Source: Hericium rajendrae
Taxonomy: Eukaryota; Basidiomycota; Agaricomycetes; Russulales; Hericiaceae
Length of the DNA stretch: 64,000 nt
Assembly: GCA_033439255.1 (NCBI GenBank)
Contig: CM065891.1
Coordinates: forward strand, 682,001 to 746,000
Direction of reading: 5' to 3'
Below, in pieces: positions 3,373 to 33,549 of this stretch. How positions within the stretch are numbered: position 1 is the stretch's first letter; each line of letters begins with the position of its first letter. The translations under genes were made by a program, and so were the position numbers. The notes below the pieces were generated by a model. That model saw only the letters and a list, made by a program, of their open reading frames with translations, was not told where the DNA came from and searched no databases.

Positions 3373-3505
3373 CACCAGTAAGGGTAGCCCTTTATCTAAA
3401 TGTACAGTACCTACTGCCTGACACAATCAATAATCCTCAGTAATAGCCAATCGTCACTTACTGAACATTTAGCTAAACACTGTCTTTGTACATTTAGCTA
3501 AATGC
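3373..3505 (+). repeat. E1 left terminal inverted repeat with palindromic motifs
   Basis: This end matches the reverse complement of 32175-32311 over about 135 bp, including AAGGGTAG, GACACAATCAATA and GCCAATCGTCACTTA. It carries three copies of a motif near ATTTAGCTAAAT (around 3394, 3470 and 3489), the most regular being ACATTTAGCTAAATGC. Repeated palindromes in subterminal DNA are typical transposase binding sites; that role is inferred. Confidence 0.85.
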
Positions 3506-4330
3506 ACTCATCTTATCTTTCAACGCCTGCAACAAACTGATCTCTCTAATCGTGCACCATGCACGACAATCATCATCGTGCGAAAAACATACCTTTTGCA
3601 TCTCATCGGCTTCTTTGCGCCTCCGCATCACAAATCGCCTGAAAGTTAGCAACAAAAAAAGGAAGGGTGACTGACATTATGGCGATACAAGATCTGTGAG
3701 TAAAATATGAGATAAAGGGGCTGCATGGAAGGATAACAGAATGGGAAAGGCAATATTGCCAGAGGGAAGGAAGGCGTCGTAATGGTCATGATGGTCGTAA
3801 TGGTCGTGGTGTCCATGATAGCGGAGAGCTTGGAATAGTGTGATAGGCGTCGAATTAAGTCATACGAGACATATGACATGGGGAGGATATTTGTGGGGGG
3901 GGGGGTCAATCTAAAGCATAAGGTCAGTGTACTCAAAGCAGGGATATAAAACAGGATGGGGTGCAAGAGATAGAGATCAATGCTACAGTATGGATGGTGC
4001 AATAAAATATGTTGCTGCGAAGACAAGGGTAAGTAGTATGATGACAATGCAAGTGAAAATGATATGTTAGTTGAGTGAAAAAGATGCAAGACGTGCAGAT
4101 AAAGGGAATAATATGTCAAAGCCCATGCCAATGTAGTGCAATGCGCGTCGTGATAAGGAAAATGTTACATAGGATAAAAATCTGTTTGTGTTGCGAGATT
4201 CAGGCCCAGTTTAAAGCGTAGAGGTGTATGGTTATGTGGTGCGAAGCATGAGAAGGGCTAGAGAAGGAGTAGTCGGAAGGCGATGGGTCTGAGCGTGACA
4301 CCATTGACATTGCATGGGAAGGGCAGCGCC
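3506..4330. other. E1 subterminal non-coding region
   Basis: This AT-richer stretch lies between the left terminus and the end of gene A. It includes a G homopolymer near 3895. It resembles, in inverted orientation, 29073-29930 of E2 (for example the CGCACGA and ATGTTTTT blocks). The 161-codon minus frame here is Leu/Ser/Tyr-rich and I do not consider it a gene. Confidence 0.5.
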
Positions 4331-7300
4331 CTAAGTCTTTCGCCGTTTCACTGGCCTCGACGAGCTGGAAGGCTGCACAGCGCTAACAAAGTCACATTTA
4401 GCAGGCGCAGAAAAAAATTGAAAATCAACACACATTGTTCGCTTTCCAGATTCTCCCATCCCAGAATTCTTCCACTGCCTAATTGCTGCCAGAGCCGTGG
4501 TCACTTGGGACACCGCATCGCTCCAGTCCCTCATTTGATGTGAAGTTGCCCCTCCGGAGTCGAAGATCTGAGCGCCCCAGAATGAAAGGCTGACCATGAT
4601 GAGAACGAGCCCACAGCTCGTGGTCACATCCATGCAGGACCAGTCCAGACCCTCTGCAGGAGGGCCCAGTCTGCCCTTGTTGTCGACGCTGCGCTCCTCA
4701 GGCTGACATACCCCCCACCACCTCCACCATTTCGCTGAGTAATCGATCACATCTGTGATTTCTCGGTCCTTCGGAAGTCGCTTGTGGGAGATCCACGTGC
4801 CAATGAGGCTCGGTCGCACCTTCGATGAGAACTCGCCGACTTTGTTGGTGGATTTCGCAGCAACCTTTGTTAGACAGTAAGCAAGGTGAACTTATCATGA
4901 AGCACAGCCCACTCACTTGAAATTCGTCTATACGCTGCACAGCAACCCACTCATTTACACATGCCATCCACCCCGCACCCCAATCCTTGTCATGCGTGAA
5001 CAGCCAGAAAAGTTCTTGCATTTTGTCGGGCCACGTCCTCAAGTCATCGTGTAGACCTGAGGTCCTGGGCACGCTCGGCATGCTGATTGAATGGTGTGAT
5101 GCTGCAGCTATCGGCCGAGTATGACGCCCCACCTGAAGCATCATTTCGTGAGCATTGGGAGGCAGTTTTGTCGGAGGCCATGAGTCGGATGGAGGTGGCC
5201 GCGTGGATGGGAGCTTCGCCCGTGCCTTCGGTCGCACCGACGGCACAGGTGAAGAGGATGCATCTTGAAAGTGTTGCATGAAATGACGGCCATGTGGGGA
5301 CGTGGGCGGCGGCAGCACTCCTGAAGGCCGGGTCTGAGCTGGGGTCTTGGGGGTGGAGTGCATCCCTGCAAAGGGATTATCTGACATTGAATCGCTGGGC
5401 TCACATCCTGCCTGGGTGTGAGTGACGCTTGTTGCTTGCAAACGCGGGGAATCATCCATGCCATCCCATTCACTCTGCCGCTTATCCTCCAACATACCCC
5501 AGGCCAACTCGTCGAGGTCCCTTGACATCTCATTTCCATCCCAGACAAACGGCTTCCTAACGTATGGAGGCCAGTGGGACGGCAGTCCGGCAATGCATGA
5601 GCTGGGTGGAGCGAACTCCCTAGCAACCAGCGGTGTATCGTTCGAGATAAGTAGCGATGGCCGTGGCGTGCGGAGGCAAGGCGAGTGTTCGCGTGAACGA
5701 TAACCGGGGATTGATGCAGGCTGCTCGCCATCCAGAAGCCTCGGATCGATTGGTATGTGAGGACTGGATGCAGGATGGGCGGCGGCATTAGGGGCCGAAA
5801 GAACACGCCTCGACGTCGCCGGATTAGATAGACGACGGTGGGTAGATTGCTGCGAGAGAGTGCGACGGGGAAGTGGGGTGTGTTGGGAGCCCGAGAACAA
5901 TACGCCTTTGGGAGCAATAGGGGTTGCCACGAATCGTTGATGCGCTTTACGTGTGGGATGATTTGTCGACGGCATGGATGGCGAGCTTCATCAGCAAAAT
6001 TACAAGAGTACGACCAGGGATGAAGACGCCTTATAAGGTTGGCCAGGTATGCCAGGCTCACCAGGAAATGAGTTTCTGGCAAGACCTTTTCGCAGATGGA
6101 TTTTCTGACCAGACGCCGCCAGAATGGTACGTCTGATAAGGCCTGGTGGCACCTGGTGGACCTTACAAGGTCTCGCCAGCTGCTCCGACATTATCATGGG
6201 TTTTCAAAGCAAGCAAGCCCTGTCCCATATACGTGATGTCAATACAGTATTACTTAGGGAAATCACACATTACTACTCTATGCACCATGTTCGAAGTGAG
6301 ACACAAATCAGATCAAATTTAATATTCTAGTATCTAGTGAAGCTACAACAGTACAAGTCATGAAACACAGTTGATGCGCATCGGAAAAAGTTTCCTCGGT
6401 AGTAAATATCTATTGCCGGGCCGCAACCTTATGGAAAGCCTTGCGAGTGAAGCGACCCATATGAAGACGACAACGTACCGGGCGCTAGGGAAATACACTG
6501 GCGTGAAAGCAATATACCTGAGTATGAGATGAACGAGTTAGCGAGAGCGCGATTAAAAAAACACATGAAGGAAAAGAAGCATTATACTTACTGACGACTA
6601 GTGCGCCACGCCGCGCCGTTGTTGTTACTTAGGATCTTGCGATATTCAGCGGTGAAAGCTGCTATATGCAGCCTAACAGCCCCGGAGTTGTCGATAAGCA
6701 TGAAGCCATAAAGGCTGTCAGCAGTGATGCAACAGCAAGGCGAAGGCAAATGTATGCGCTTACTTCAGACAATCCGACAACGACAACGCGGAATTGCCCT
6801 CAATAGTCGCACATAAGCCTCATGAGTCTGATGAAAATCCAGTTATATGTGGGTCCTCAGGAAGATACTTGCGAAGGGGACAGATACAGAGATGGGGGAA
6901 TTAAGTGGGGCGAGAGTGGAGACATGATGGGGAGAGGAAAGAGCGACAAGACGACTTTGACCCCCGAGAACGACGCAATATATCATGTTTGTGGTTGTTG
7001 ATGCGTTTCGATCACGCGGATAAAAGCCTGTGACGTCATCAGCCAGCCGAAGGCAAGGGCCTTCAGCAATCTTCAGCTAAGTTCAGCGTTTACTTACACT
7101 GGCAGCAGCCAGGCAGCAAAATATGGTACACGACTGACTGAAGAAGTGTCGACCCTGCAAATGGGCTTTATGAATGTAGCGCGAGTGCGGCCAGTGCAAC
7201 AGTGCCTTGGACGGATGCGATCAGTGTCGACAGCGCGCCCCATAATGTCGACTCCGTATGCGGAGGGGAGATCGCCATGATGGCGAGGACTGGTAAGGAC

Positions 7301-9924
7301 TATGTGTGCGCGCAGCGTGAGTGCAGCGAGGTGGGCGAAGATAAACACTGTGCAGGGGACCGATTGGAATGAGGATGAGTGAAGAAGTGCGTGCAGCGCA
7401 CGGTCGGGAAGGAAGGGATGAGATGGGAGGAACAGCGCGTACATTTTTAGGTCTTTGAAGTGGGGCTAAGAGTGCGCGAGGACGCGTGGACACGCGGGGT
7501 CGTGGAAATGTCTACGAGCATGGAGATAACGGCGGTGTGACAAGGCCAAGGGTGAGGGTGAGGGTAATTACTAATAGCGACAAGAGCGACAGGTACGGGG
7601 GCGACGAGGTGAAGGCTGGGGAGTTTGAAGGTGAGGACGACGGAAACGGAGGCGAGGGTATAAGATAGTGCATAGAGAACGCACCTCCGACAATGAGGAA
7701 GACCTTGACCTTATTGAAGATAAGTAGGAAGAACTCCAGTGACGGTGAAAGCGAGGATCTGTTGGAAGAGGTGGGCTTCGCGCCACTGTAGCTAGAAATC
7801 ACTGTGAATGTCATGTCTATTCTGGCAAGATAATATAAAGTGCTGCCGATGATAGGAAAGCACTTATAAGGCCTCACCAGATCGCTGAGCACCTGGTCAC
7901 AGCCATACGAGCAAGGCCTCGACTGGAAAGATGCCAGATAAGAGTGTGAGCAAACTCACTCATGTCATACCAGGCCACGTAAGCGTAAATCGTCTGGCAC
8001 CCGGACCGCTGATCCCGGCCATCCGCCACCAGGTGCCGCCAGGTTAATTCTTAACTTTGCACTTTTGCTGATGTTGTCCCGGGAAGGAACAGGGGCATTC
8101 CAGGCTCCACAGGATGTTTGCTGCTTGAAGCATTCGTGTAGCGCGACGCGTGGACCGAAGGTGTAACGGCAGATTGAATGGTAGGAGACAATTGGTGGGC
8201 ATGCGACAGGGGAAGAGGAGGAGGAGTTAATGAGTCTAGGTGCTGGTCCAAAGGGGGCAGAGGAGGCGACGGGGACCACGGGTCTCTAGCTCTAGTAGAA
8301 GGCCCCGGTGTGGGGCTTCCCCTTCCAAAAAGCGATGGATTGTCATTTGATCTTGTGGAGCCTGCAGGTGAGGGGACCACTGGAGAGGCGCTCCTCACAG
8401 TTATGTCAGCATCCGATGCAGCGGTTATGGTTGGAACAATGCGCGCAGCACATTCCTCCTTAGCTATAGACATGAACACGGTTAGCAAAGCAGCTGGTAA
8501 AAAGACATAACAATATGTACTAAAGCAATGGGAACCGAATCGACAATATGATGCCTCCATAGCCTCGAAACCGACCGAATCATCATCCATCCACTTCAAA
8601 CTTCTCGCGTCGCTCGTGGTGCCAACATGAACACTGAACATGATGTAAGTCTGCAGTTGCATGATCAAAGGGCGGCCGACATACCTCTTCATACCTATTG
8701 CCCCCTTATTCGCCCCGATTGGGCCCGTCAGAAGGATGGAGACACACATGCCGAATATCTGCTGGAGGTGCTCGGCAAATGGGTACAAATAATAGGCAGT
8801 CTTCGATAGAACCCTACAGAGTAAAACGTGTTAAAACGTGTCATTTCTAGAGGAGGGACACACGTACCGGTCATAATATTCAGGCGTTTTCTCTTCATCG
8901 GCCGCCTCCAGCTGCTGGTGATACGCTTCCATCTCCTTCTCGTAAGCCTGATCTCGCTCTTCTTTCAGCCCGCGCTGAAACTCGGCAGGCTGAGCATGGT
9001 ACACGGTGCGCGTGTAGGCCGCGCGTAGCTTGACGTCAGACAACCGACTGCCGCGATCATGATAGTCCTCCAACCAGTCTTCGTAGATCTTTGTGAACAG
9101 GGCGTCCCCTTCGAAGGTCATGCCAGTAAGGATAATGATCTGAGATTGTGACGGCAGGGAAGTTGTGTCGGTGGCATCAGAATTCAGCTGGGAAGCCTTC
9201 CACCTCGCTGAAACAACCATAAAATGGCGGTCAAATTGTGGCTTGACCATGGATTCATAATGCCTCGTGGAGAAAAATTGATCCTCATGGTGTCGACGAG
9301 GCTTCACTACCACCATGTCGGTAATGGCATCAAAACTCTTTGCGATATTACTGGTCGCCTTCACCTTGCCGATGCTGACATCGGCGTCGGTGTTATTGCC
9401 ATTGTTTCGAAACCAACTCGAGATTTTCTACAAAATGATCAGCCCTAGCTTAAAGAGAATGTACAAGATAGGCTTACATCCCGGATGAAAACACGATGCT
9501 TGCTCTTCCAAGCAGCATCTAATTCCACCTCCCGGCCGATTGCAACGCGCGATGGTCTGGAAACGCACGACGGTCTGGAAATGTGCGACGGTCCTGCGGA
9601 CGGCTCCGCCTCGTCGACGTCCTGGGCATCTTCCTCGTAATCCTCGTAATCCTCATCGGACTCATTGGGGTCTTCTTGAGACGGCTTGGTGGGCTTAAAT
9701 TTCAGTGGCCTCGGAGGGTATCCAAACTCGAGGAGAAAGTCGTTGGTGGTTTTGTCGTAAAAGACCCCCACCGTGTGCCCCTTCACAGCGTCGCGCCACG
9801 TAGACCGCAGAGCCGCACAGAATGTGACTTTGTCGCCGAGGATGAAACCGATGCGACCACGAGGTTTACCTAGACTTGCACGTCGAGCTGCACGAGTCTT
9901 GCCTAGTTTGGTCGCCTTGGGCAT
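4331..9924 (-). pseudogene. Gene A of E1, large nuclear-looking protein, interrupted by a TIR element
   Basis: This is the E1 copy of E2 gene A (25630-29072). From the start near 9924 the exons give a basic N-terminus (GKPRGR, then FYDKTTNDFL), a helical middle (8831-9364), a domain around YPFAEH and GPIGANKGAIG (about 8600-8790), a Ser/Pro-rich linker, a short domain with WPDKM and KDWGAGW (about 4960-5020), and a C-terminal WWRWWGVCQPE domain near 4690-4740. It ends in a basic tail RPVKRRKT that looks like a nuclear localisation signal. A 2,085 bp TIR element (5989-8073) sits in the linker, while E2 has an uninterrupted site there. Start and introns are assigned by alignment to E2. Function is unknown. 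Confidence 0.7.
5989..8073. mobile_element. Non-autonomous TIR element, CATCAGCAAAA family, copy 1
   Basis: The stretch begins CATCAGCAAAA and ends TTTTGCTGATG, a perfect 11 bp inverted repeat. It interrupts the linker of E1 gene A, which is uninterrupted in E2. TT is found on both sides (5987-5988 and 8074-8075), so the duplication may be 2 bp. No convincing protein is encoded; frames such as 7094-7444 minus are low-quality. A second, shorter member is at 37222-38321. CACCTGGTGG-like blocks recur near both ends (about 6145-6160 and 8025-8045). Confidence 0.75.
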
Positions 9925-10266
9925 CTGGTCGGCGGCATCAATTAGAAGGTCAAGGAGTAGCTGAATAGGGTACTGATCGTTCGATTCTGAATGTTGAACT
10001 TCGGCGCCTGCCGGCTGCACCGGTATACTGCTGAACCGCAATCACGTGCACGTGATTGTTCGAACTGAACTGCGTTCCAGTTCCACCCTGGCATAAGACG
10101 AAGGTCCCCCTGCTAGGATGGTGTTCACATTGAGCTCGCGTTCGAATTTCTCGCTTCATGCAATGTGGCTGAGAGCTCTTAACTCTATATAAACCCCCTC
10201 GGTATGTGCAGTAAAATCCATCTCTCCTTCTCCTCTTTTATCCTCGTCTTTTCTCTCCTTTCGACA
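9925..10266. promoter_or_regulatory. Divergent promoter between gene A and gene B of E1
   Basis: The starts of A (minus) and B (plus) are 342 bp apart. Near 10038 lies the perfect palindrome AATCACGTGCACGTGATT with two E-box cores (CACGTG). A TATA box in CTATATAAACCCCCTC (about 10185-10200) lies 70-80 bp before the B start. The same 16 bp TATA block and one CACGTG occur in the matching spacer of E2. Shared control of the pair by a bHLH-type factor is inferred. Confidence 0.6.
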
Positions 10267-11463
10267 ATGTCATCGTTGTTCGTCGAGCTCGATCGCACGT
10301 CGCCCGCCAGCCTGAGTGGCCATGCCACGCCTGAGTCCTCCATCACCATGTTGTCGTCGCCGTCATCGCCATCGTATGGGACCGATCCAGAGCTAATGAG
10401 GATCATGGGGGAGGTTGAGATTTTGCCGTCGGGCGCCGCATGTAAGCATTGTTGAGCTCTTTGTGCTTGTCGACATCGTATAATAGCTCTTGTAGATATC
10501 CCTACTTGTTCCGAATCGCCGCAGCACCCCCGCAATTTAGGTAAGGGAGCACGCATGGTCTTGTTGCAGGCCTGACCGAGATGTAGGTGACCATGCGACC
10601 AACGGACGTAGCTATCATCTTGTCTCTGGGACGCGCGCGGGTATCTTTCACCAGTGGTAAGTCGCTGTAGTTCTGTAGTATACTGTTTCATGTCTGTAAT
10701 TATGCACGATAGGTGGCGACCCAGACAGCTCAGTCAGGCAGTGCCGCGCGGATTCCTGAGCGCAATCAAAGGCAGGGGGCGCGGACGTTGCTCAGCACCT
10801 GCCATGGCTCAATTAGATTCATTCGCAAGTGCCCCGAACAGCGAAGCTCCTGATTCAAGCTCGGAGGAGGATGAGGGCGACGGATGGCTGACAGCTTGGG
10901 TTGTATTTCGGGGATACTGTCCTGGTGTTTATTATGACAGGTGCGTCGCTGTGGTTTGGGCATTACGCATGCTAATTACAGAGCTAAGGCGCTGCGCGGA
11001 GGAGCAGGTGCTTGGTTGCTTGCACGGCTTCCATACTGGCTTCCACACCCATGACCATGCTTGGGCAGCATATCGCGCACACTTGAAAAAGGGCTTGACT
11101 CATTTCTGCCCAGATGAAGCGCCGGGCTGTCGCCCCGTCCTCGCGCCCTGGTACTCTTACTCTCGCCATTCTGAGAGCATGCGGAGTGACGGCGACGTTG
11201 GTCCTGGCCTGTCAGATGGCCCGTCAGAGGCCAGCTTACCACTTGCAGAGTACCATGACCTTCCTAACATTCACTCTGGGCCAGTGTATGTTGTCTTCCA
11301 AGGCAAGGTACCAGGCCTATATGCGTCGCTCTTCGCAACAACGCGGCAGGTCAGCGGCGGTTTGCTGAACGTCTTAGACTATTATAAGTACCCAGATTTG
11401 GTTGCGGCATGGATGGCATTTGCAGCTGCGATCAACGCGGGTAGAGTTCGCGTGCGGAATTAG
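10267..11463 (+). CDS. Gene B of E1: protein with three RNase H1 N-terminal (viroplasmin-like) domains
   Basis: The ATG at 10267 follows a TATA box and opens a Ser/Pro-rich leader ending TDPELMRIMGEVEI. Three repeats of the hybrid-binding domain found at the N-terminus of RNase H1 and in caulimovirus viroplasmin follow: SYHLVSGTRAGIFHQW (exon before about 10660), AWVVFRGYCPGVYYD (about 10890-10940) and VYVVFQGKVPGLY (about 11285-11325). Each shows the hydrophobic pair, G, PG-aromatic pattern. Introns start near 10442, 10540, 10661 and 10939. No RNase H catalytic domain follows, so the protein probably binds RNA or RNA:DNA hybrids without cutting. An acidic SSSEEDEGDG linker separates domains 1 and 2. 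E2 carries the same gene. Confidence 0.75.
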
Positions 11464-12182
11464 TTCATGTAGGCCCTCCATACTGCAACTTCCAGGTATC
11501 TTTACTCATTCTTCTCCCTACCAATTTTTCACCCTGAATGTTTACTTACCTGTACCTGGGACATGTGTAGTACTGCGTCCTCGATCTCATCGTGTTGTAA
11601 TATTGCTTTCTTACTGCTTTTGTTTGGCTATGTCACAATGTTTTTCGCAATGCATTTTTTGGTGTAAGAAACAATTTACTCCCATAATCGGACGTTTGAT
11701 CATCGGGTGGCAACTGAGCAGTGATCAGAAGATTATTCAGTCTCCGCATAGTCGGAGATTGAAATGCAGAGCCTTCAATTCCTCCGGATTTGGAAGCCAC
11801 GTCCTCCTCCTTCCCTCCAACAGCAAGCACTACTCTCCTCCCTCACCGCCGGCCTGTTCGAACTACCTGGTCCTCTCTATTCGCGTTGTCCATCGTGGTG
11901 AGTTAATCTCTTCTTATAAGCCCCATCTCTGCACGAGCCCTTCCAGTTGGGCCTCGCCCAGGCCCAGCAGCTGGACTCGAGCAGTTGCGTGGGCTTCCTT
12001 CTCCTGTTGTTGTTCACGCGAGCTGACCGGTTTTGAACGCGATTTCATCCAGGGCGGTTCTAGGGAGGGAGGTTCGCGGTGGTTCAACGCGGTTTTCTTG
12101 TCTCAAGGTGAGTTTCGTCACTAATCACCCCGACGCCAAACACTCAGCATTGTTTGCCAAGTTGCAGACCGAGACCAGTACC
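11464..12182. other. Spacer upstream of the E1 TET/JBP gene with a structured block
   Basis: No convincing gene is seen. The block at 11940-12070 contains TTCCAGTTGGGCCTCGCC and CCCAGCAGCTGG, which can pair with each other, followed by a run resembling GAACGCG and CTAGGGAGG. The same block occurs upstream of the E2 TET/JBP gene, where it is duplicated. It may be leader sequence or a promoter element. Confidence 0.4.
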
Positions 12183-14349
12183 ATGCAAAGCCCGGCTGGC
12201 CCCATTGCTGTCAGCCGTATGCGTTCAGGCCGGGACTACACGCCGTTCTACCAGCAATTGCACTCTGTACCCATCCAGGTAGTGGACGGCAGCATCGACA
12301 TTGGCCCCGGTCTTTTCAGAGCCTTTCAGGAGGAAGATAGAAGGCATGAAGCAGAGGACAAGGGGCATCAGGCTTCCTCCCACAAGGGGAGGTCGCCGTT
12401 GGCAACGGGTGTGTTCTCCTCTCCCATCGACCCGCTGACGTGGCCATCCATATCGTCGCATGGCCCCTCCCAGCCCATGGACCTGGGCTCCTCTGCACCC
12501 ACCGCTGCTGGCTCGTCTGCGCCCACTGCTTCCGGCTCGTCCACCTCCACCGCCCCCGGCTCATCTGCGCCCACCGCTTCCAGCTCGTCCACCTCCACCG
12601 CCCCCGGCTCGTCCACCTCCACCGCTTCCGGCTCGTCCACATCCACCGCCCCCGGCTCGTCCATGTCCACCGATCCCGGCTCGTCCACGTCCACCGATCC
12701 CGGCTCGTCCACATCCACCGCCCCCGGCTCATCCGCGCCCACCGCTCCCGGCTCATCCACCTCCACCGCTCCCGGCTCCTCCACGTCCACCGCTCCCGGC
12801 TCGTCCACATCCACCGATCCCGGCTCATCCACCTCCACCGCCCCCGGCTCGTCCGCGCCCACCGCTTCCGGCTCTTCCACATCCACCGCTCTCAGCTCGT
12901 CGCCAACTCCTGCTCTCTCCTCTTTGGCGATGCCTACATCCCATTCCTCGCACATCCCTCCTCCCATGCCATCACAGCCAGATCAGTCGCCCATCTCCAC
13001 CAGCACCACGCGTGGGCCCAAGGATCTGTCATCCGCTGTGAGGACGCATCGGGCCAAGGCAAAGTCGAAACGGAAGCAGCGGCAGAAGGCGCATGACTGT
13101 GCCGCTGGCATCGTCCTCCCTAAGCTGCCAAAGATACGGTCCTCGCTCTCAAGGCACGTTGGGAAGACCGCTGTCGTCCCTACAAACTTCAACACAGCTC
13201 GATTTAGAAGGGCAAACTGGGCTTTTGTGGGCATGCGTACGTGTCCCTTCCGAATGAAGCCATGGACGTTGCCGGAGCTCTTGCATATTGGGTTTCGAGT
13301 GTTGGAGTGGGATGGCAGGTGCGTCCGAAAGGCCCTTTGAATATTATATTTGACATTCAATATGTTCTCCATTGCAGTTTGCCCCATGTTCTTTGCGATC
13401 CGCAAGGCTGCATTGTAACCGTCCTTCCTGGCCGGCCTCAAGGCCCAGAGTGGGACGTTGTTATGGAGGAAGCCACCGTAGCGTTCGAGGAAGGAGAGAA
13501 GGAAAGCCGGCACTGGTCAACAAGAGACCTTGTTGATGGAAGGAGGGGGGATTTCCTTGCCCTGGATACTGGGATCTCTTACGGCGGTGGCCCTCAGGTA
13601 CGTGCTCTACTCATCATTAGAGCTGGTATGCTAATAAGGCATGCATTCAAGGTCGCAGGGAACCTTCGTAACAGCGGGCCCATGCAGAGAATTATCGACA
13701 AACTTGTTGCCACGCCGGCCTTGCAGTGTATAGCAGGTTTCGGCAGTAGTGTGTACAGCCTTTCTCTTATTAGTATGTCTCTTACACCCTTCCTGCAGGC
13801 ATCTTTGCACTGTACGCACCCAAGGTCTACAGTTACTACCATACCGCCCTGGACACGCTCTTGGCCAAGTTCCCGCATCTGAAGCGCCCGTTCCCGAACA
13901 GCATGTTTCCAGCTGCCACCATCAACCTCGGCCCTGCCACGGTCTGCAACGATCACCTTGATTGCACCAATGTTCCACATGGCTGGTGTACGATCACCCC
14001 TTTGGGACGATTTGACCACACCAAGGGTGGTCAATTGATTCTATGGGAGTTCGGACTCATTATCAATATCCCTTCCGGCTCAACTGTGGCCATTCCCTCT
14101 GCATCTATTCGGCATGGCAACACCCCCATCGCGCCGGGTGAAGTTCGCTTCTCTCTAAGCCAATACTGTACGGGTGTGCTACTGTGCTTCATCTGCCATG
14201 ATTTTCGGCCTGCAAAGACACTTTCCCATTCGCAGCGCGTGGCGATGGACGGCACTCCTAAAGAACGCTGGATATGGGCCTTATTGTTGTATTCAACCAT
14301 GTCCACTTTAATAGCAGACCGGCTGAGCGTGTTTCACCTGCAGTCTTAA
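12183..14349 (+). CDS. TET/JBP-family 2-oxoglutarate/Fe(II) DNA dioxygenase of E1
   Basis: Enzymes of this family oxidise 5-methylcytosine or thymine in DNA in the nucleus. The C-terminal catalytic core (about 13800-14340) shows the HxD iron site in NDHLDCTN, a GGQLILWEFGL strand, the distal His in IRHGN and the 2-oxoglutarate Arg in VRFSLSQY, so the key residues appear intact. The N-terminal half has a Ser/Thr/Pro repeat linker (12487-12895), a basic KAKSKRKQRQK patch and a conserved region around WTLPELLHIGF. Introns fall near 13321-13377, 13597-13650 and 13745-13798. The start ATG at 12183 is the first one in the frame giving MQSPAGP; an extra upstream exon is possible. It lies between B and the KDZ gene, and E2 has the same gene. 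Unlike the E2 copy, I see no nonsense codon. Confidence 0.85.
12487..12895 (+). repeat. Coding minisatellite in the TET/JBP linker
   Basis: About 17 tandem units of 24 bp encode the octapeptide GSSTSTAP and variants (GSSAPTAS, GSSTSTDP). The reading frame is kept throughout. The matching E2 protein has only a short Ser-rich stretch, so the array grew in E1 after the two copies parted. Long frames on the opposite strand are by-products of this repeat. Confidence 0.9.
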
Positions 14350-20200: not shown

Positions 20201-21086
20201 GGTTGCGCATGTTTGCGGCGAACGAGGTGTAGCGGGCCACCAGGCAGTGCGGAGGAGTTGGATTCGGGATGGCATGCTATCAGGGCACCTACAGAAGTCG
20301 ACCTTGACGGGGTGGATCCCGTTGGTATGCAGAACGATGAAATCCTTATGAGCGGCCTCGCGAGCAGGACATGGGCCTGCAAAGGCATGCCCCACTTGAA
20401 CTCAGAGGCCCAAGTCACAGAGCATAACTTGCTGGAAGTGGCCATGGAGCCATTGCTTAACAAGATAGGCGTGAGGCTGTGGAAGAGAAAAAAGGCAGGA
20501 CACAAGAGGCTCACCTCAGCCACATGCAGCGGGAGTGCATGGTGAACATTCAGCAAGCAATCCTTGCAGAGAAGCTGCCCTCCGTGACAGTCCCTGCAGC
20601 GAAAGGCAGACCCAATGGCACCACACAGCCCACAAGCGCTCTCTACCCCGAAGTTGGCTTCACAGGCGGCCTCACCCCTCCCATCCAACCTCAGCACCTC
20701 ATCCAAGTAATCCGACGCGTACTCCCTCCACGTCAAGAGAGGGAGATCCTGTGGGGCCACAAGTCAGATGCCGTCAGGCTCAGCAATCGATGCTGGCTCA
20801 CTGAGTTCCTATATCGCTTCGCTGGCACTAACTCGATCCCATCCAGCCCGGGCTCTGCTGATCCTGCGACCTCTGGCACTTCGAAGAACTGTTCCTCAGG
20901 CAAGTCGACATCGGGGACGGCTTGGCCAGCATCTGGCAGCGGGGGGATGATTGGCGTTGGCGCGATATGGTCTGTTCTCATGTGAACACGATGACGGCTG
21001 TCCAAGGAGAGGACCTCCGAGATAATAGCAGGCTGATCGTGATCATGCATCTCTTGGATGCGTTTCTTGGACTTGTTCTTCACCAT
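17211..21086 (-). CDS. CxC-KDZ transposase of E2
   Basis: Read from 21086 down, the protein starts MVKNKSKKRIQEMHDHD. It has an acidic leader, a cysteine cluster (CGLCG, CRDCHGGQLLCKDC, about 20590-20660), the HKDFIVLHTNGIH block, and a core with LAMDANFRLK (about 19750), SYDLACQW (about 19295) and ELEGPERNWAWLN (about 19090). A long helical, charged C-terminus ends at 17211. About a dozen introns match those of E1. In-frame TGA codons are seen at 20404-20402 (where E1 has an Arg codon) and at 17826-17824, so the copy is probably inactive unless these fall in unrecognised introns. It would recognise the palindrome-bearing termini. Confidence 0.85.
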
Positions 21087-21370
21087 TGCAAAGAGCTGAC
21101 GTGCGACGAGAAGTGGATAGGGGATGGAAAGCTGAAGACAAGCCTGTAGACTTTAGACAGGATGAGGGGGAGGGGAAGGTGATCGTGGTGTGAGGCGAAA
21201 GCGCTGGCAGTACGCAAGGCGCCGCCTTGACGAGGCGCGTGGGAACTTTTGATAAGCATGCATCGTGTTCGAAGAGACTTGGTCTAGACCCCACTCTGCA
21301 GAGACCAGAACATGCAGTTACGAGCCCATGGAGCGAACGTTTTAATACACAAGAAAGGACAGACTAAAAC

Positions 21371-23273: not shown

Positions 23274-24065
23274 GTCAGAGTGGAGCTGTCCTGGCTACGG
23301 CCGCCCCTAGAGAGAAACGCGTGCGTGAGGTCAGATGGTTTGTACAGGAAAAGCAGAAAGAAAAAAGATGTCCCGCGACTCTGCCTTCCAACTGCTGGGC
23401 CTTGGCGAGACCCAACTTGAAGGACGGACAGAGTCTCTGGGATGGGAGATGGAAAGTCGAACCACTCACTGGGAAGCGCTACGCGCGCACGATGTGTCAA
23501 CCAGGTGGATTTGTCTTCGAAAGGGCCACCCCTAGATAGAAACGCGTGCGAACGAGGTCAGATCGCGTCGAAAAGCAAAACAAAGGGCAGAAGCCGTCCG
23601 GCCGCTCCCCCCATCCAGCTGCTGGGCCTTGGCGAGACCCAACTGGAAGGATGGACGGAGCCACCAAGACAAGAGAAGAAAGGCAAGCTACTCACGAAGA
23701 CTACTCAACCCAGAGGAAGAGAAAGGAGTGGATAGAACAAAAGACGAGGAAAACGAGAGGAGGAAGAGATGCGAGGTCAAGTTGGCCGCGTCCGAAAGCG
23801 GTATGTAGGTGAGGCCTCACAATTCATGCCCCGACGAAGCGGAGTCTCAACTTGCACAAGTGGATGAGTAATGCTGATGACACCGCCAAAAAACTCTGGA
23901 ACATATCATTTGCATATTCAGAGTAAGCAACGACCGAGAACGTAAGAAAAGCGACAGAACACATGACAGTACAGATAACAGTGGGATTGTAACGAGACCG
24001 GAAAGTGAAGATAGCAAAGACTCATCCATGCAGTGAGCCACAGGCTAAATATCATCATCGGTATG
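23274..24065. other. Spacer upstream of the E2 TET/JBP gene with a 225 bp tandem duplication
   Basis: Two imperfect copies, starting at the CCCCTAG boxes at 23304 and 23529, each contain AAACGCGTGCG and CTGCTGGGCCTTGGCGAG. The same block occurs once at 11940-12070 upstream of the E1 gene. The rest (23800-24065) is AT-richer with no visible gene and covers the 3' flank of gene B. Confidence 0.6.
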
Positions 24066-25287
24066 CTAATTCCGTACGCGCACACAGCCAGCCGCAAGGG
24101 CCTCTGCAAACACCTCTCTAGCAATATAAAGATTCTTGTATTTGCTAAAGTTGTTCAGCGACACGCCGCAAACCTGCTTCAACGTTGACCAATACGAAGA
24201 ATATAGCCCTGGCTTCTTTCCCTGGAAGACAGCATAGACGGGGCCTACATGGTCATCCGGCAAATCATGAAACTGCAAAGCAGGCCCTGCATCAGGACTG
24301 TGCTGAGGACTTAGCGCGACGCCGTCACCTTCGTCGTTGTCGACATCACTATGGGTCGAGCCAGGAGCGGCAGGGACCCACGGTGCGATAGCAGGACAGC
24401 ATTCAAATGAACCTTCCTTGCAGAAGTGCGTCAGACCACGCTCCAAGTGAGCACGGTACGCCGCCCACGCGTCGCAGCAGTCATGGAAGCCACTGTAGAG
24501 CGGCTGTGCGCATCCACGAACCTGCTCCTCTGCATGTGCCCTGTGTACAGGAATGAGCCCCTGGCCACTCGAGAAGGATAAAACTTACAAATTGTAGTAT
24601 ACCCCGGGGCAATAGCCCCTAAAGACAACCCAAGCGTTAATCCATGACCCGCCTTCGTAACCCATTCCATCGCCAGAATCTTCTGCATTATGGCGTAGCA
24701 CGTGAAGGCGCCGTGCCCGCCCAGCCTTCTGACCCTTGCTACTCCTCGCACGGAAGGCATAGGCCAATCCTCGTGGGACGCCTTGGCTCACCGCGCCAGC
24801 CTCCCACCTACAGGACAAAACTTCACGATAAAACTCTACTCCTAGACTACTACTGCTTACCACTGTGAAAAGAATCCTGTACGTTTGCCCGACACTACAT
24901 GATAATGATGGCCGTTCATAGCGATGTTGTCTGGAACGTTTTCAGTAGCACTCAATAGGCGAACGATGAGCACGCGCACCGTCCGACTCGACGTCGTTTG
25001 CAGACCAACTGCTAGGGAAAGGGGCAGACGAACTAGCAGAGGTTGGTGATGAGGCGCGACCAGCGGGGATGTCTGCATGGCCAGCCTCACAGTAAGAACA
25101 TGACGCGCCGGTCATAGGCAGAACACTTACACGCCTTTCCTTCTGCGTCAATCTCAACCTCGCCCATAAGCCTGACCAGCTCTGGGTCCGTCGCATAAGA
25201 CGACATTGGCATCTGGCGTGATGACAAAGGTGTAGCATACGACGATGGGCTCTCAGACGGTGGAGGAACACACAGCGGCGAGAGCAT
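24066..25287 (-). CDS. Gene B of E2: protein with three RNase H1 N-terminal (viroplasmin-like) domains
   Basis: The ATG at 25287 opens MLSPLCVPPPSESPSS. As in E1, a Ser-rich leader ends TDPELVRLMGEVEI. The three domains begin at HYHVVSGKRTGFFSQW (about 24910-24860), AWVVFRGYCPGVYYN (about 24640-24595) and VYAVFQGKKPGLYSS (about 24245-24200). The intron after the first FxxW falls at the same place and phase as in E1. No nuclease domain is present. A TATA block identical to that of E1 (CTATATAAACCCCCTC) lies about 80 bp upstream. It shares a divergent promoter with gene A. Confidence 0.75.
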
Positions 25288-25629
25288 CCCCGCCGAGCAC
25301 GAGAGATAGAGGCGAGTAAAAGAGGGAAAAGGGGAGTGAGGATTACGGAGGAGCTGAGGGGGTTTATATAGGCTGGGGGGCGTCAGCCACAGCGAAGGAA
25401 GCGAAGGAAGTCGAACCGCAGAGCAGCGCACGCTGAACGTGCCAGAGGGCCTCTACACGCTCGAGAACATGAGCCTGAACGCGGTTTGTTTTGATCACGT
25501 GCATATAGTTGAAGTTCGGCTACGTCGGCTAAAGATCGGGACCAGCCGGAACTGGGTGTGAGTCGGTGTTTGTACTCCTTCGTTCACTCCCTATTCGTCT
25601 CCCACCTGATTGACGCCGCAGATAGCCCG
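25288..25629. promoter_or_regulatory. Divergent promoter between gene B and gene A of E2
   Basis: The spacer is 342 bp, the same length as in E1. The TATA block for B is at about 25355-25372 on the minus strand. One E-box, in GATCACGTGCAT, lies near 25494-25504. The full double palindrome of E1 is here reduced to one half. Confidence 0.6.
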
Positions 25630-28600
25630 ATGGCTGGCAAGACGCTCGCAGGCAAATCGCGCGTTCGCAAGTCGCGCCTTGCTGGTCTAGGGAAGCCTCG
25701 CGGCCGCAAGGCCTTCCTACGCGGCCACCGAGTCAAGTTCTGCCAGCGACACGTATCAGCCTGGCGAAACGCCACTGCCGCCGATCCTCCCACGACAGGC
25801 ACGTTTTATGACAAGACCACAAATAGTTATCTGCAAGAAATTGGGTACGATTTCGACGTCAATGCAGAGGGCAGAATCATTCCTTTACCCGATGACGTGG
25901 ACGAGGACGAGGGTGCCGAGGGCTTTGCAGGCGAGGACGGGCCAGTAGGGGACCAGACCGCGGCTCAGGCAGCTCACGCGGAGGTGGTCGCTCAGAAGAA
26001 GAGCGTCAAGTGGAAGGCTCTTTGAACGGTGCACCTCTTTTTTGTTTATCTTCGCTTACTCTGACTTGCCTGCTTGATAGGCTCTTTCCCATTGGTTCCG
26101 CAATAACGGCAATGGCTCCGGGAGCAAAAAACCTCGCGATGGAATGAGCAAGAAGTTCGACGCCATGGTTGACATGGCTCCTGAGAAGCCTCGCCGTGCC
26201 CATGCCGATCAGTTTTTCTCCACGAAGCACTACGACATCATGGTCAAAGACTGCTTCAACGCCCATTTCCACACCATCGCTTCGGCATGGGCGGCTGCCC
26301 AGGCCATTCCTCAACAGCTGGGCGCGGAAGGCTCGCCTTCAGAAGATCAGCTGGCCTTGCTTGCCGGCGTGACGTTCGAAGGCGACGATCTCTTCCAGGA
26401 CGTCTATGACAACTGGCATCAGAGTTTCGCGAAGAAAGGTGGCAAGCTGGTTGAAGTCACGCTGCGGGCTGCTTTCACCCGCACGGTGTACCATTTGCAG
26501 TCGGACGAGTTCAAGGAGAGCCTCAAGCAGGAGTTAGACAGCATTTATGACAAGGCCATGGACACGTATCGCCAACTCTTGGATGCTGCTGACACGGAGA
26601 AGACGCCGGAGTACTACCATGAGTACGTACAGTTGCTCCTCATGGTGATTTGTAGGCTGATTCACGTCATGCAGGATGCAGTCTAAGGCCCCTCATTATC
26701 TGTATCCATTTGCCGAGCACATGTCGAAGAGGCTCGGCATGAACGTTTCGATAATGGTGTACGGCCCAATCTCAGCGCGAGGGGGAGCGATCGGTGTGAA
26801 GAGGTGCATCTTTCCCATTGTGCTGCCATGTATCAATCTAACGATATACACAGTATTCACGTTGGAACCACAAATGACCCTGCAAGCTTGGAATGGATGG
26901 ACGCCGAGCCGGAGGCCTGCGAGGCGATGGTGAAGTCCATGCGCGCATTCGGGGAGCAATGTTTTAGTGAGTAACATGTGCCTGTTCTGTGGCCTATGTA
27001 CTGATGGACCTGCCTACGTAGCCCCGGAGGAGCGTGCAGCGCGCGCTCTTCCAAACATCGCGACGAGCTCTAGCGTTGATCCGCCAACAGACGAGGGGCC
27101 GCCAAGGTCGACGGAGGCGATGGGCGAGCAGCAGGATGCTGCTTTTTTACGTGGCACTGCTCCGCCTGAAGTCTCACCTCGTGCTAGCCGGTCTCCATCT
27201 CTTATCGGTGGGCCAACTCACATGCGAATGCCGGAGGCTGATGGGACACCATCAGTACTCTCCCCTCGTGAAGGCCGTTCTTATCCTTCACGTGGCTCAG
27301 AGTCGCCAGATCACATGCTCGCCCCTCCTTTCATGCCGTCGAGTCCCACTCCACCGCGCACGCCTGCCGCTCCCTTGCAGGCAGCGCCCAAACAGTCCGC
27401 CGTCCTGTCGAAGCAAGCTCATGGTCCAGCCAAGACCCCGTTGTTCCTGCCTAGCTCCAGCCCCGCTTCTGCCCAACTGAGCCATCATCCTTCCCAGAAC
27501 ACTAGTCTGCATCGCGGTCCACCGCCGCCGCTGCCCTCCTCCATCCCACGTCCCTCTCGGACTGCTTCACAGCCTGCATCCCGCGTGGCACGATCTGTCA
27601 ACGTGCCGTCCAGGCGGTTTATATCTGCACCCGCACCTGGTTTCATTACGCAAATTGATCACCCTGCAGCGAGCAGGAAAGTGTCCATTGACCCTCGCCT
27701 TGAGGTGCAGTCGGCATCTGGAGTGGAACATCGTGAACGCGAGGAATCAGATGGCCTACACACCCCACCCTTGTCACCCCTCATACCCGAGGATGAGCCG
27801 CTCGTCGCGCCGAGTTTCTCAAATATGCCGGCGAATCGGATGCTGCAGCCATACTTGCGAAGGCCGTTCCCCTCGCAGCGCAGTGGGATGTCGAGGGAGC
27901 TCGACGAACTCTCATTCAGCTTGCTGGAGGACAAGCGGGAGATGGAATGGAATGCAATGTGTAGCACCCATGCGCAGGATCGAGAGCGTAACAAATCCGA
28001 CAGTCCATTCATGGCCGTCGACACTATCCCGAAGACGCCCGCTCGGCCTCCAAGACGTCAAGCACCCATTCGACACAAGCCCTCTCATCCATTGTCGCCA
28101 CTCTTTTCTCCTGGATTGCCTCCGTTTACTCAGCACTTTGCTGAAGCCTCTTCTTCTCCTGTGCCTTCGCAAAGAGCCAAACTGCCTTCCACAAGGCCTC
28201 CTCCCAGCTCATCTTGGCCACCAAGTCAGCCACCTCCCAATGCGCTGCAAACCATGGAAGAGATGGCAAGGCGTCGTCGACCAGCTGCATCTGTCATGGG
28301 TCCTGCAAGAAGCTTGGTGGCTGCCACAACAACTTCCGTAGTGAGGGCTGAGAAGGACACCTCACGCTGGCCGGACAAGATGCATGAGTTGTACAAATTT
28401 TTGACCAATGGCAAGGACTGGGGTGAGGGCTGGATTGCTTGTGTCACAGAGTGGGTCGAGGTCGAGGGTATGGATGGATTTCCGGTAAGTCAGCGTTACT
28501 TGAATGGGAGGTAGCACTATAGCTAACCGTCCAACAGGTTGATGTTAAGTCCAATCCCAATGTTGGTGCGTTTTCTGCTACCACCCGCCCCGAGCCTGTT

Positions 28601-29072
28601 GGCAGGTGGATTGCATACAAGAGAACTGCCAAGGATCGACCAATCGGAAGTCTCATGGCGTACTCGAGTGCATGGTGGGCTTGGTGGGGAGACTGCCAGC
28701 CTGAAGAGCATGGCGTTGACCAGAAGGGTAGGCCAGGTCCTCCAGCAGCGGACTTGGACTGGTCCTGCATGGATGTCACTACCAGTTGCGGCCTGGTGCT
28801 TATTATCATCAGCTTATCTTTCTGGGGTGCTGAGGTCTTCAAGGCCGGAGGTGTGAGTTCGCGACAGGCATAGGAGTGGCACGATGCTGTTGCTCAGGCC
28901 ACTCTGGCCTTCACCTCTATTCGTAGGTGGAAAATGGACAGTGAGGGTGACTCTGCGAAGCGAAAGAGGTTCGTACCATGCTTTTCATTGGCTTGTCGGT
29001 GCACTAAAGTGAACAATCAGCATCCCACTCCCCTCTGGCTCGACCAGACCCAAGAAGCGCCGCAGGAATTAA
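25630..29072 (+). CDS. Gene A of E2: large nuclear-looking protein with Trp-rich C-terminal domain
   Basis: The ATG at 25630 opens a basic segment MAGKTLAGKSRVRKSR, then GKPRGRKAFLRGHRVKF and GTFYDKTTNSYL. Exon 2 (about 26080-26620) is helical with HWFRNN and HADQFFSTKHYD. The next exons give YLYPFAEHMSKRLGMNVSI with GPISARGGAIG (about 26700-26800) and an HVGTTND block. A Ser/Pro-rich disordered linker follows (27030-28350), then RWPDKMHELYKF with DWGEGWIACV (about 28370-28450). The C-terminal domain contains SAWWAWWGDCQPEE (28665-28705) and DWSCMDV. The last exon encodes a basic tail RPKKRRRN, likely a nuclear signal. I recall similar proteins as abundant hypothetical proteins of agaricomycetes. 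I cannot assign a function. The exon 1 donor is uncertain. Confidence 0.72.
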
Positions 29073-29933
29073 TTCTCGTACGCAGCCCTCTGCGTCTTCG
29101 CGCGCCTCTCATGCAATTGTTCAAATGTCGACCATATTTATTTCCTTCCGCTTTCAACACATTCATTTCATGCCTCTTGTTTTCCCTTCACGATGCTCCC
29201 ACCTGACACTTTACGACATTTTCTGTCTGACGACAATCCACGACGCTCCACAATGCTCGACGAAGGTCCTACAGCTCAAATCTCAACGCCTAATATCGCA
29301 TCTATATCATATGTATTCCATCTTACGTCGCATTGCATTGTCTTATACCCTCGCATCGTACAGCTTTCTGCCATACTGTCTTCATAACTCTCTTACTCTC
29401 CAGCATTATATGCTCACTGCATAGTCCATACTGTAGCATTATTCTCTATCTCATCGCCTCCCCTTGTTTATTTCTACTCATGCATACTAATCTCTGCTCT
29501 AGGTGTTTTCCTCTTTGAGGCCCTATGATCTCGCCTCAATCTGCGAAACAGTGCTTCTACTTGGTCCGATTCAACTCACAATGCCTGGTACATGCTTTAC
29601 GCTTCCACAGCGTCACGAAGATATATCGACATATTCTCTGATTCACCACATCCTCACCTATTCTCCCTGCTTTTACACAGTCTTGCTTTTTAATGGACAG
29701 CTATACTTGGTACCTTATGTTGAGATCTTGCATCATTATAATGTCAGTGACCTTTTGCTTCTCACTCTGCATGTCTTCGCTGGGGTTTGCAGGCAGGTTC
29801 AAAAGGTGTGTGTTATGTTTTTTGTGCAACATATGTTTTTCGCACAACATATGTTTTTCACACGACGTATGTTTTTTGCACGATTAGATTTGATAAGATT
29901 AAGGCTTTCGAACCTGAGAGATAAGTTGAGTGC
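29073..29933. other. E2 subterminal non-coding region with short tandem repeat
   Basis: This region lies between the end of gene A and the right terminus. At about 29817-29885 three imperfect units of roughly 20 bp carry CACAACATATGTTTTT. Frames here are Tyr/Leu/Ser-rich and match the non-coding 3506-4330 region of E1 in character, so I call no gene. Confidence 0.5.
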
Positions 29934-30066
29934 ATTTAGCTAAATGTGTAGAGGCAGGCATTTAGCTAAATTTGTGAAGACTTGCCAATTGTAGGCTGCC
30001 GATGATTTTTCATTGTGGCAGGTGGTAGGTACTGTACCATTAGTTAAATGGCTACACTTAGTGGTG
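29934..30066 (-). repeat. E2 right terminal inverted repeat
   Basis: This end is the inverted partner of 16734-16895. ATTTAGCTAAAT-type motifs occur at about 29935, 29960 and 30040. It ends GGCTACACTTAGTGGTG directly before the GATTTCT duplication. Confidence 0.85.
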
Positions 30067-31849
30067 GATTTCTGTGGCTTCTCGAACTGGAGACGCGTGG
30101 TTGGCATGGGTTCGTTGCCTTTGTATGCAGGCCATAATCATATGCTGACTCATCTTTCATAGGCTCCTCCCTTCTTCGAAAGATGTTGGAAGCCATTTCG
30201 AATGTGATCACTTTCCACCACGCCTACAAGGAGATGGATGACGGTCTTCGCGGCAAGCGCCCGGAGCAGGTAGAGGAATGGGACGCTATGTTCGCTGCTT
30301 GGAATGACGACAAGGAGAACAATCCTAGCCCATTCACTGCTCCTCGAGCAAGTAAGTCCTGGTCTTCCTTTCGAGAGGAAATTTCTGACTCATTTGTTCC
30401 AGAGAAGAGCATGCAAGAGATACGGCAAGAATTGAAGGAGGAGGAACACGCCGCATTGGGCCAGGCCATGGATGAGGAGAGTGACGCCAGTGCATCCTCA
30501 TTCCTGCTGCTGGGCCTCGAGTTGGAACAGACCCAGTACGTGTTTCTTGATTCTGTTTTTGAGTTCTGCACCTAAATACAATTAACCAGGTGATCACTTC
30601 GACATGATCTCAAGCTGGCGAAGTCCCCTACTACCCTGCAGATATCCGACATTGATGATCGCCGGCGGGTCTTTATGCGCCGAGTCCGACGCTTCCAGCG
30701 AAAGCAGGCAATACACATGCCTGGCCTACAGAACACCGGTGGTGACGATATCAACGATGCCGACCGACCAGCACTTGATAAAGTGCCAGCTGAAGAAGTG
30801 GAACTGCAAATGCCATCAGATCTCGATGGTTCAGAAGCCCGACAGGCTGCCTGTTCCATTGCGCTGGCTGATGTGGAGGTCAGGCTTCAGACTGCAGAGG
30901 CGGAAGATGCCCTTGATGACTTGCGGTGTCACCTTCAGATGTGGTCTTACTTCAACAACTTCAAGGTGAACAATGTCGTTGGGCAAGGTCCACACATGCG
31001 TGCCCGACAGACACAGACCCAGATCGATGAGCGGGTGAAGCTGTTGAAGCTTCGATACCAGCATGCATATTGAGCATTGATGCGTTTGACAGGAGGTGGC
31101 AGCTGGACCAGTTACCTTCGCGAACTCAAGGATGCAGACGTTCGCACACTACGCGAAGACCTGCTCGACATCGTGGAGCTGCCAGAAGGAGAGGGCAATA
31201 ACGAAGATACTGCTCCCTCACAAGACTTGGCCAGGCGGGGACGGGGACATGGTCGCAGCAGCCAGATACCTGCTAGGCAAGGGCGAGGCAAGGCCAGCAG
31301 GTCAAGCCAGAGTCAAGGGAAGAAGCCCATTATTTCTTGGATCTGGCATGCTGTCCCTACCGCAGCAGATGAGAACGATCCTGCTCTTCAGAATGGTACG
31401 TCGTACTGATCCTTCTTTTCTCCTTTTTCTTGCTAAAAGCTTTGTCCAGCGCTTCGCATCGAATGGTCCAAGGCGAAGGTCCGCGCTGCTCGATGGGAGG
31501 AGGAAGTCGAGCACGTCGAGGAAGAGATGCGACGTGTCCTTGAAACCTTTGCAACGGAGGCCTCCTTGTGGGCAGATCGATCTGCATGACGTGACACGTC
31601 CATTGACAGCAACAAGGATAAAGACCAAGCATTGAAAAAGGCATTCATGCCTATGCAGCAGAGCAGGCTACCATGTACCATGGCCTTGCTACACAGTTCA
31701 GCAACCGCTGGGCTGCAGTTAGAGTCAAGGCTCAGCCGGTGCTGGATGGGAGCGCATACACAATGGAGGGCGACGATGAAGAAGGACTGCCTGTTACCAC
31801 AATTGAGCTTGAGTTAGGGGTGCACGATGAGGATTATGAGGCATTATAA
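30067..31849 (+). pseudogene. KDZ transposase of E1, C-terminal part
   Basis: The coding sequence cut at 16733 resumes here with FCGFSNWRRVVGMG, the residues that follow directly in the uninterrupted E2 protein. The rest is charged and helical (MLEAISNVITFHHAYKEMD, KSMQEIRQELKEEE, RQTQTQIDERVKLLKLRY) and ends in an acidic tail near 31849. Two in-frame TGA codons are visible, at 31072-31074 (Trp in E2) and 31587-31589 (Arg in E2). Both are single transitions, so this half had decayed beyond the E2 insertion. Confidence 0.82.
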
Positions 31850-32174
31850 GGTGCGTGATTTGTTCTAGCTTTCTGAAAAGTGACTGAGCTTTGCATATGC
31901 TTCAATCAGATCTGTGCAGGCGGCTTGTTTCCCTTGCATATCCTGTATCATTTTCACCTCCCAGCAATCATTGTGCCTGTCCACGTCTGTCTGCGCAGAA
32001 TCCTATCATCTTATCTTATCATAAGGTGACATCATATTGTGCAAAATTGATATATATGTAATAGCTTTGTTTTTGTACGCAATTGAATGTTTTTGGTCCG
32101 TCTGCCTATTCACATGCCACAGCCCGTTCAAGTATGCAAAAATTGATCTTAATGATTTAATAGATAGATGAGTG
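31850..32174. other. E1 right subterminal region
   Basis: This AT-rich spacer runs from the KDZ stop to the right terminus. It contains a TATATATG run near 32050 and no gene that I can support. Confidence 0.5.
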
Positions 32175-32311
32175 GTGCATTTAGCTAAATGCACCTCTAT
32201 GTGCATTTAGCTAAATGTGCGATAAGTGACGATTGGCCATTACTGAGGAGTATTGATTGTGTCGGGCAGCAGCTACCGGTACACTTAGCTAAAGGTCTAC
32301 CCTTATGCCTG
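32175..32311 (-). repeat. E1 right terminal inverted repeat
   Basis: This end is the inverted partner of 3373-3505. It has GTGCATTTAGCTAAATGC twice in close succession (about 32176 and 32202), a third diverged motif near 32282, and ends CTACCCTTATGCCTG next to the TTCATAA duplication. Confidence 0.87.
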
Positions 32312-33547: not shown

Positions 33548-33549
33548 AA

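Follow-up and report, generated by a model that had tools for sequence, protein, structure and literature searches.

Two nested copies of a KDZ transposon with a TET-like gene and a divergent gene pair in Hericium rajendrae

Transposons that carry a TET gene are thought to shed methyl marks and escape silencing, which raises the question of how their oxidase would reach the right DNA. A 64,000-nucleotide stretch of Hericium rajendrae (positions 682,001 to 746,000 of contig CM065891.1, assembly GCA_033439255.1; here called the window) poses it at one locus, where an earlier note made from the sequence alone had described two transposon copies, E1 and E2, each with a transposase gene, a TET/JBP gene and two further genes, A and B. 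An association of TET/JBP genes with KDZ elements in basidiomycetes was reportedly noticed by Iyer et al. in 2014. We asked whether E1 and E2 are copies of one element, whether A and B belong to it, and what the two genes might contribute. The likely explanation is a once autonomous KDZ cut-and-paste transposon that carried TET-like, A and B genes; E1 and E2 would be old copies of it that were inserted separately and have since been inactivated.

Ends, nesting and lineage of E1 and E2

The two elements and their ends are as follows.
3373–32311, plus strand: E1, the outer four-gene element, with target-site duplications (TSDs), CA..TG ends and a terminal inverted repeat (TIR)
3366–3372, no strand: left 7-bp TSD of E1, TTCATAA; right copy at 32312–32318
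3373–3522, no strand: left terminal region of E1, with ATTTAGCTAAAT-type motifs at 3390–3503; partner at about 32166–32311
16734–30066, minus strand: E2, the nested element, 13,333 bp, with the TSD GATTTCT at 16727–16733 and 30067–30073, and a TIR
29914–30066, no strand: 5' terminal region of E2, with a ATTTAGCTAAAT-type motif at 29934–29971; partner at about 16734–16888

TTCATAA stands on both flanks of E1 and GATTTCT on both flanks of E2, as read at the ends and checked by script for all four flanks; the duplications, put earlier at 7–8 bp, are thus 7 bp long in both copies. Each element starts with CA and ends with TG. The TIRs are imperfect, with 82% identity over 146 bp in E1 (expect value, E, 8e-32) and 72% over 127 bp in E2 (E 2e-12), and all four element ends can be aligned with one another. 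A subterminal palindrome, ATTTAGCTAAAT, is common to the two elements. With up to two mismatches it has 13 matches in the window, where 1.23 would be expected; 12 of these 13 sit at the four ends of the elements, which makes the palindrome a good candidate for a transposase binding site.

E2 sits inverse to E1, inside a modelled coding exon of the E1 KDZ gene. E1 has a total span of 28,939 bp, and its own sequence comes to 13,512 bp once E2 and the 2,085-bp insertion at 5989–8073 are subtracted, each together with one TSD; the script thereby reproduced the sizes of 13.5 and 13.3 kb, and the coordinates, given for the two copies before. Self-comparison found the similarity of E1 and E2 to be colinear from end to end, in pieces with unaligned stretches between them, with an identity of 64–76% in aligned pieces of at least 100 bp. 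Self-comparison and a comparative gene model, which assumes short introns and gives approximate exon edges, yielded the same gene order for both copies, in E1 orientation A (minus), B (plus), TET-like (plus) and KDZ (plus). TSDs, TIRs, colinear similarity and gene models therefore agree with the proposal of the earlier note that two copies carry the same four genes, in the same order and orientation, within matching termini. A and B are present in both E1 and E2, and their membership in the element family is well supported by the two copies.

The transposase genes lie at these positions.
14639–16733, plus strand: KDZ transposase of E1, 5' part, with the CxC2 domain
30074–31849, plus strand: KDZ transposase of E1, 3' part beyond E2
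17211–21086, minus strand: KDZ transposase of E2, with the KDZ domain in 18916–19608 and a premature TGA at 20404–20402

The catalytic domain in E2 matched PF18758 (KDZ) with 159.4 bits (E 1.4e-46; cut-off 26.6), and the CxC-type zinc cluster in E1 matched PF18803 (CxC2) with 137.5 bits (E 2.4e-40; cut-off 27). At the level of sequence, E1 and E2 are confirmed as DNA transposons of the KDZ superfamily, and these matches together with the catalytic motifs of the TET-like gene uphold the view that the family is a KDZ family with TET-like cargo, a kind of element already described (PMC12730594). TET-positive Kyakuja elements are known from five orders of Agaricomycotina (Kojima 2025, PMC12730594), for which escape from methylation silencing has been proposed, and the Kyakuja families of Laccaria bicolor are described there with 7-bp TSDs and CA..TG ends. 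E1 and E2 have a KDZ transposase, a TET/JBP dioxygenase gene, the 7-bp TSD and the CA..TG termini in common with these elements, and because of the 7-bp target duplications and the CA..TG ends, found in both copies, a Kyakuja-type lineage is the best fit. The TIRs of 127–146 bp and 72–82% identity count against this assignment, as two Kyakuja families of L. bicolor reportedly lack TIRs (PMC12730594), an absence that is not clearly defining.

KDZ1–KDZ3 of Cryptococcus neoformans (PMC12810828) resemble E1 and E2 in their size of 9–11 kb, their TIRs of 139–241 bp and the presence of a CxC zinc cluster next to the KDZ domain. They differ in having CxC1 instead of CxC2 and TSDs of 8 bp (KDZ1) or 4–8 bp (KDZ2 and KDZ3), and the available text of that paper makes no mention of TET or A/B genes. 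Scans of bacterial and archaeal genome contigs and of plasmids returned no KDZ relatives, and five of five scans of viral contigs returned no confirmed relative of A (two alignments), B, the TET-like gene or KDZ; these collections are non-fungal by their descriptions, and the null scans are therefore uninformative on recurrence.

The TET-like gene and the A/B pair

The TET-like genes are located as follows.
12027–14349, plus strand: TET/JBP-like dioxygenase gene of E1, with an open frame from 12027 and the motif HxDxxN..H..R (automatic model 12663–14349, plus strand; catalytic exon 13798–14349)
21371–23082, minus strand: TET/JBP-like gene of E2, with a premature TGA at 22177–22175

Both copies keep a facial triad and a 2-oxoglutarate arginine, in the form of H-x-D-x-x-N with a His at +53 and an Arg at +64 from the first His. 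CcTet of Coprinopsis cinerea likewise has an Fe(II)-binding HxD..H (His326, Asp328, His376) and a 2-oxoglutarate Arg (Arg385) at similar spacing, with His376 and Arg385 at +50 and +59 from His326 (PMC11040006, available text). These catalytic motifs, together with Pfam scores that reach some queries below threshold, suggest a TET identity. At the places of CcTet Gly331 and Asp337, both E1 and E2 have Asn and Cys, as counted by spacing from the HxD and not by direct alignment with CcTet, and provided that no gap upsets the comparison at +5 and +11 from the first His. Kyakuja TETs, in contrast, have Gly or Ser at 331 and Asp at 337 (PMC12730594, available text), the combination that marks the AG-type, and by this count the gene of E1 and E2 falls outside it. 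Human TET2 also has Asn at the first place (PMC11040006, available text); there the side chain of Asn1387 holds 5-methylcytosine (5mC) and blocks N6-methyladenine. Because of the Asn and Cys, the former as in human TET2, the gene, if it is a TET, would differ from the published Kyakuja type and would perhaps prefer 5mC. The 5' part of the E1 gene contains a 24-bp tandem array (12390–12965) that encodes a Ser/Thr/Pro-rich repeat in one frame.

Genes A and B were modelled at these positions.
4331–9960, minus strand: gene A of E1, from the comparative gene model and alignments, interrupted at 5989–8073
9960–9478, 9427–8862 and 8813–8051, minus strand: modelled exons of the N part of E1 gene A; the model adds a first exon at 10094–10029
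5975–4917 and 4864–4331, minus strand: modelled exons of the C part of E1 gene A, with the Trp-rich C-terminal domain and the C-terminus PVKRRKT
25630–28873, plus strand: gene A of E2, start picked by eye (automatic model start 25469)
10267–11463, plus strand: gene B of E1, start picked by eye at a Met near the one in E2 (automatic model start 10204)
24066–25287, minus strand: gene B of E2, with a Cauli_VI match of 53.7 bits, start picked by eye (automatic model start 25470)

Gene B of E2 matched PF01693 (Cauli_VI, the RNase H1 N-terminal domain) with 53.7 bits (E 2.5e-14; cut-off 21), and its counterpart in E1 stayed below the cut-off with 17.5 bits (E 0.0048). When the gene was split into three segments, the E values for the RNase H1 N-terminal domain were 0.056, 2.4e-07 and 1.9e-06 in E2; in E1 the first segment had no match and the others gave 0.0023 and 0.034. 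E2 therefore has two clear domains and one weak one and E1 only weak ones, in two of the three segments, so that the description of B as a triple viroplasmin-like protein holds in part for E2 and less well for E1. Ligands of RNase H1 N-terminal domains include RNA:DNA hybrids and double-stranded RNA, and gene B may encode a reader of RNA:DNA hybrids.

Gene A is 61% identical between E1 and E2 in its 145-residue Trp-rich C-terminal domain and 49% in the N part. Neither copy had a Pfam match, so that profile searches, proposed for both genes, placed B and left A unplaced. Among solved structures, the Trp-rich domain and the N part gave only unrelated rows, if any; such rows, in the searches with the N part and with the TET-like gene, had E values of 0.039 to 0.68. 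An AlphaFold2 model of an internal exon had a mean predicted local distance difference test score (pLDDT) of 42 and was discarded. The product of gene A is a large and probably nuclear protein, presumably similar to a family of hypothetical proteins that mushrooms have in multiple copies. The start codons of both genes are uncertain; a minor point in support of the element is the distance of 342 bp between the by-eye starts of A and B, which is the same in E1 and in E2.

All four genes were most likely kept by selection while the lineages of E1 and E2 diverged. In segments picked by similarity, which biases the values downward, the ratio of nonsynonymous to synonymous differences per site (pN/pS) between E1 and E2 was 0.48 for gene A (bootstrap 0.43–0.52; 794 codons), 0.56 for gene B (0.48–0.65; 326 codons), 0.34 for the TET-like gene (0.28–0.39; 365 codons) and 0.33 for KDZ (0.30–0.36; 1,149 codons, some of them overlapping or from unspliced stretches). 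Synonymous sites are close to saturated. We draw the conclusion of selection because the bootstrap ranges of all four genes lie below 0.66 and because third codon positions are the most variable in four of the four genes.

Both copies are now broken. In E1, the transposase is split by E2 and gene A by the insertion at 5989–8073, with one further stop possible in the transposase. In E2, premature stops lie in the TET-like gene (TGA 22177–22175), in KDZ (TGA 20404–20402) and near the 3' end of gene A (TAG 28871–28873). These were accepted, one per gene, from stops in aligned codons that numbered one in A, one in B, one in TET and three in KDZ; the remaining stops, in B and the extra ones in KDZ, were taken by eye as unspliced introns and rejected as premature stops. 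E1 and E2 are separate insertions from two diverged lineages, both inactivated. The ratio of observed to expected CpG is 0.71–0.85 in the four pieces of E1 and E2 and 0.94 in the insertion at 5989–8073; outside the two elements, four of six stretches have 1.00–1.07 and the remaining two 0.88 and 0.83. This depletion hints no more than mildly at decay linked to methylation.

What the A/B pair may do

From these features we infer the following course of events. The transposase, with its CxC2 zinc cluster and KDZ catalytic domain, would have its recognition sites in the terminal repeats and in the subterminal ATTTAGCTAAAT palindromes, and would cut and paste the entire 13-kb unit. The unit would bring along three further selected genes, a TET/JBP-like Fe(II)/2-oxoglutarate dioxygenase, B and A. 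The dioxygenase may oxidise 5mC on the DNA of the element and so oppose silencing by methylation, and the divergent A/B pair may bind nucleic acid and help expression, targeting or transposition. With B bearing domains of a kind that binds hybrids and double-stranded RNA, and with both genes apparently kept under selection beside the oxidase, A and B are concrete candidates for its targeting partner.

Several results weigh against this account. Of five E1 queries that took in the catalytic region, two matched Pfam Tet_JBP, with scores (12.5 and 11.9 bits) under the cut-off of 34.9, and of four E2 queries none did. An NCBIfam scan returned nothing for the TET-like gene, a search of solved structures returned unrelated rows and no TET structure, and AlphaFold2, run on the catalytic exon with a two-sequence alignment, gave a mean pLDDT of 33 and no usable fold; the Asn and Cys depart from the published type. 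The gene B profile found no RNase H1 N-terminal structure among solved structures up to an E of 1, and the starts in the automatic models are not spaced by 342 bp. The pN/pS values carry the downward bias and, for KDZ, the overlap named above. The evidence base is two copies in one window, and a third A/B-like pair in that window weakens the idea of A and B as special to the KDZ/TET element. The parts of this third pair are as follows.
58266–58679, minus strand: third A-type Trp-rich domain, outside E1 and E2 (profile match 58335–58607)
61355–62231, plus strand: third B-like viroplasmin gene, with Cauli_VI at 58.5 bits in 61962–62231

Every reading frame of the window was scanned with five profiles (two of the A N part, one each of A Trp-rich, B and TET). 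Beyond E1 and E2, the Trp-rich profile matched 58335–58607 on the minus strand (E 1.5e-11; pairwise E about 8e-7) and the B profile gave a weak match at 62067–62210 on the plus strand (E 0.0081), and the two A N-part profiles and the TET profile matched nothing; in the reversed window, the control, all five profiles had zero matches. The B-like gene passes PF01693 with 58.5 bits against 21, with two further weak Cauli_VI matches at the locus (E 0.14 and 0.3, in 61115–61408 and 61324–62505), and the A-like and B-like genes are divergent (58.3–62.2 kb), as in E1 and E2. An N-terminal homology of the third A-like gene with A, which seemed alike by eye, was rejected, the alignment z-scores of 0.6 to 2.0 being not significant. 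Because this pair sits outside E1 and E2, the A/B pair may not be tied to TET and KDZ, with only 1.8 kb of the window left past the third B-like domain. In any event, the third pair offers a route to trace how accessory genes move among elements.

It is accordingly possible, though we hold it doubtful, that A and B form a two-gene module or mobile unit in its own right, which moves among several agaricomycete transposons and is found in this KDZ family by chance. The third divergent pair lies beside a Gypsy-type element whose similarity to a second copy breaks off at about 57301, the ATTTAGCTAAAT subterminal motif of the KDZ family is absent there, and neither TET nor KDZ has a match in the 62.2–64.0 kb interval at an E of 0.5 or less. 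Yet the window ends 1.8 kb past the third B-like domain, and TET and KDZ genes could lie beyond. Termini that would mark off A and B as a unit of their own were not seen within E1 or E2, nor was a clear pair of termini within 57–64 kb; and the A N-part profiles match nothing outside E1 and E2, the third A-like gene having no significant similarity to A in its N-terminal part.

We consider it unlikely that A and B merely ride along as passengers, in the sense of a pair of host or foreign genes which the ancestor of E1 and E2 captured on one occasion and which takes no part in transposition or in escape from silencing. The third divergent pair outside the elements would suit such a capture, as would the weaker constraint on A and B relative to TET and KDZ, and there is a precedent in capE, a viroplasmin gene that is captured cargo of a Pleurotus Helitron (PMC4289320, available text). 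But the pN/pS of A and B is well below 1 despite near-saturated synonymous sites, where a useless passenger would be expected to decay, and their order and orientation are preserved. The precedent, too, weakens the idea of A and B as special to this element. The Helitron in question, HELPO1.3 of Pleurotus ostreatus, published in 2014, is like E1 and E2 a mushroom DNA transposon with a PF01693 gene; it differs in being a rolling-circle element with other cargo, and TET and KDZ are not mentioned in the available text (PMC4289320). The main text of PMC12730594, as available, mentions neither 'viroplasmin' nor 'RNase H', and among the papers listed by searches of the open-licence literature, supplements apart, none showed a description of A or B in a KDZ element. 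A TET-carrying KDZ element is thus known as a general kind, and the conserved A/B pair in a KDZ element is apparently undescribed.

A bolder version, which we rate as improbable, would make A/B a conserved head-to-head accessory module of several mushroom mobile elements, with B binding R-loops or small-RNA hybrids at the element through its tandem RNase H1 N-terminal domains and A as its nuclear partner, the two together guiding the TET-like enzyme, an Asn-pocket subtype apart from the published Kyakuja AG-type, to silenced copies in a transposon-encoded, nucleic-acid-guided demethylation. That E1 and E2, which lie together in the window with all four genes in common, are one locus duplicated locally is hardly credible, since it is contradicted by the TSDs: E2 is inverted and, flanked by a 7-bp TSD of its own, breaks a coding exon of E1, and identity is only 64–76% in the aligned pieces of at least 100 bp.

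Other features of the window

The insertion that interrupts gene A of E1 is described by one row.
5989–8073, no strand: insertion in E1 gene A, 2,085 bp, with ends CATCAGCAAAA..TTTTGCTGATG and the TSD TT

Its ends and TSD agree with the CATCA..TGATG termini and 2–3 bp TSD given for PlavakaB (PMC12730594, available text), and it is PlavakaB-like by its termini alone. Another element of 1.1 kb, at 37222–38321, has CATCAGCAAAA..TTTTGCTGATG ends and the TSD AA, and 34505–34920 looks like the same region minus the insertion, a paralogous empty site.

The left neighbour of the third A/B-like pair is the Gypsy-type element, whose similarity to a copy at 1–1617 ends at about 57301; an E1/E2-type terminus of a third element was looked for at that point and not found. 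The Gypsy-type polyprotein pieces at 1–1617, before E1, and at 51804–57301 are 92% alike over 539 overlapping residues; RNase H is over the Pfam cut-off in both, and aspartic protease and reverse transcriptase are below it. Direct copies at 33549–34504 and 50908–51862 are 93–94% alike in the pieces found and lie about 17.4 kb apart, a spacing like that of long terminal repeats. Short tandem arrays occur at 44231–44378 and 38694–38906, with 19-bp and 21/54-bp spacing.

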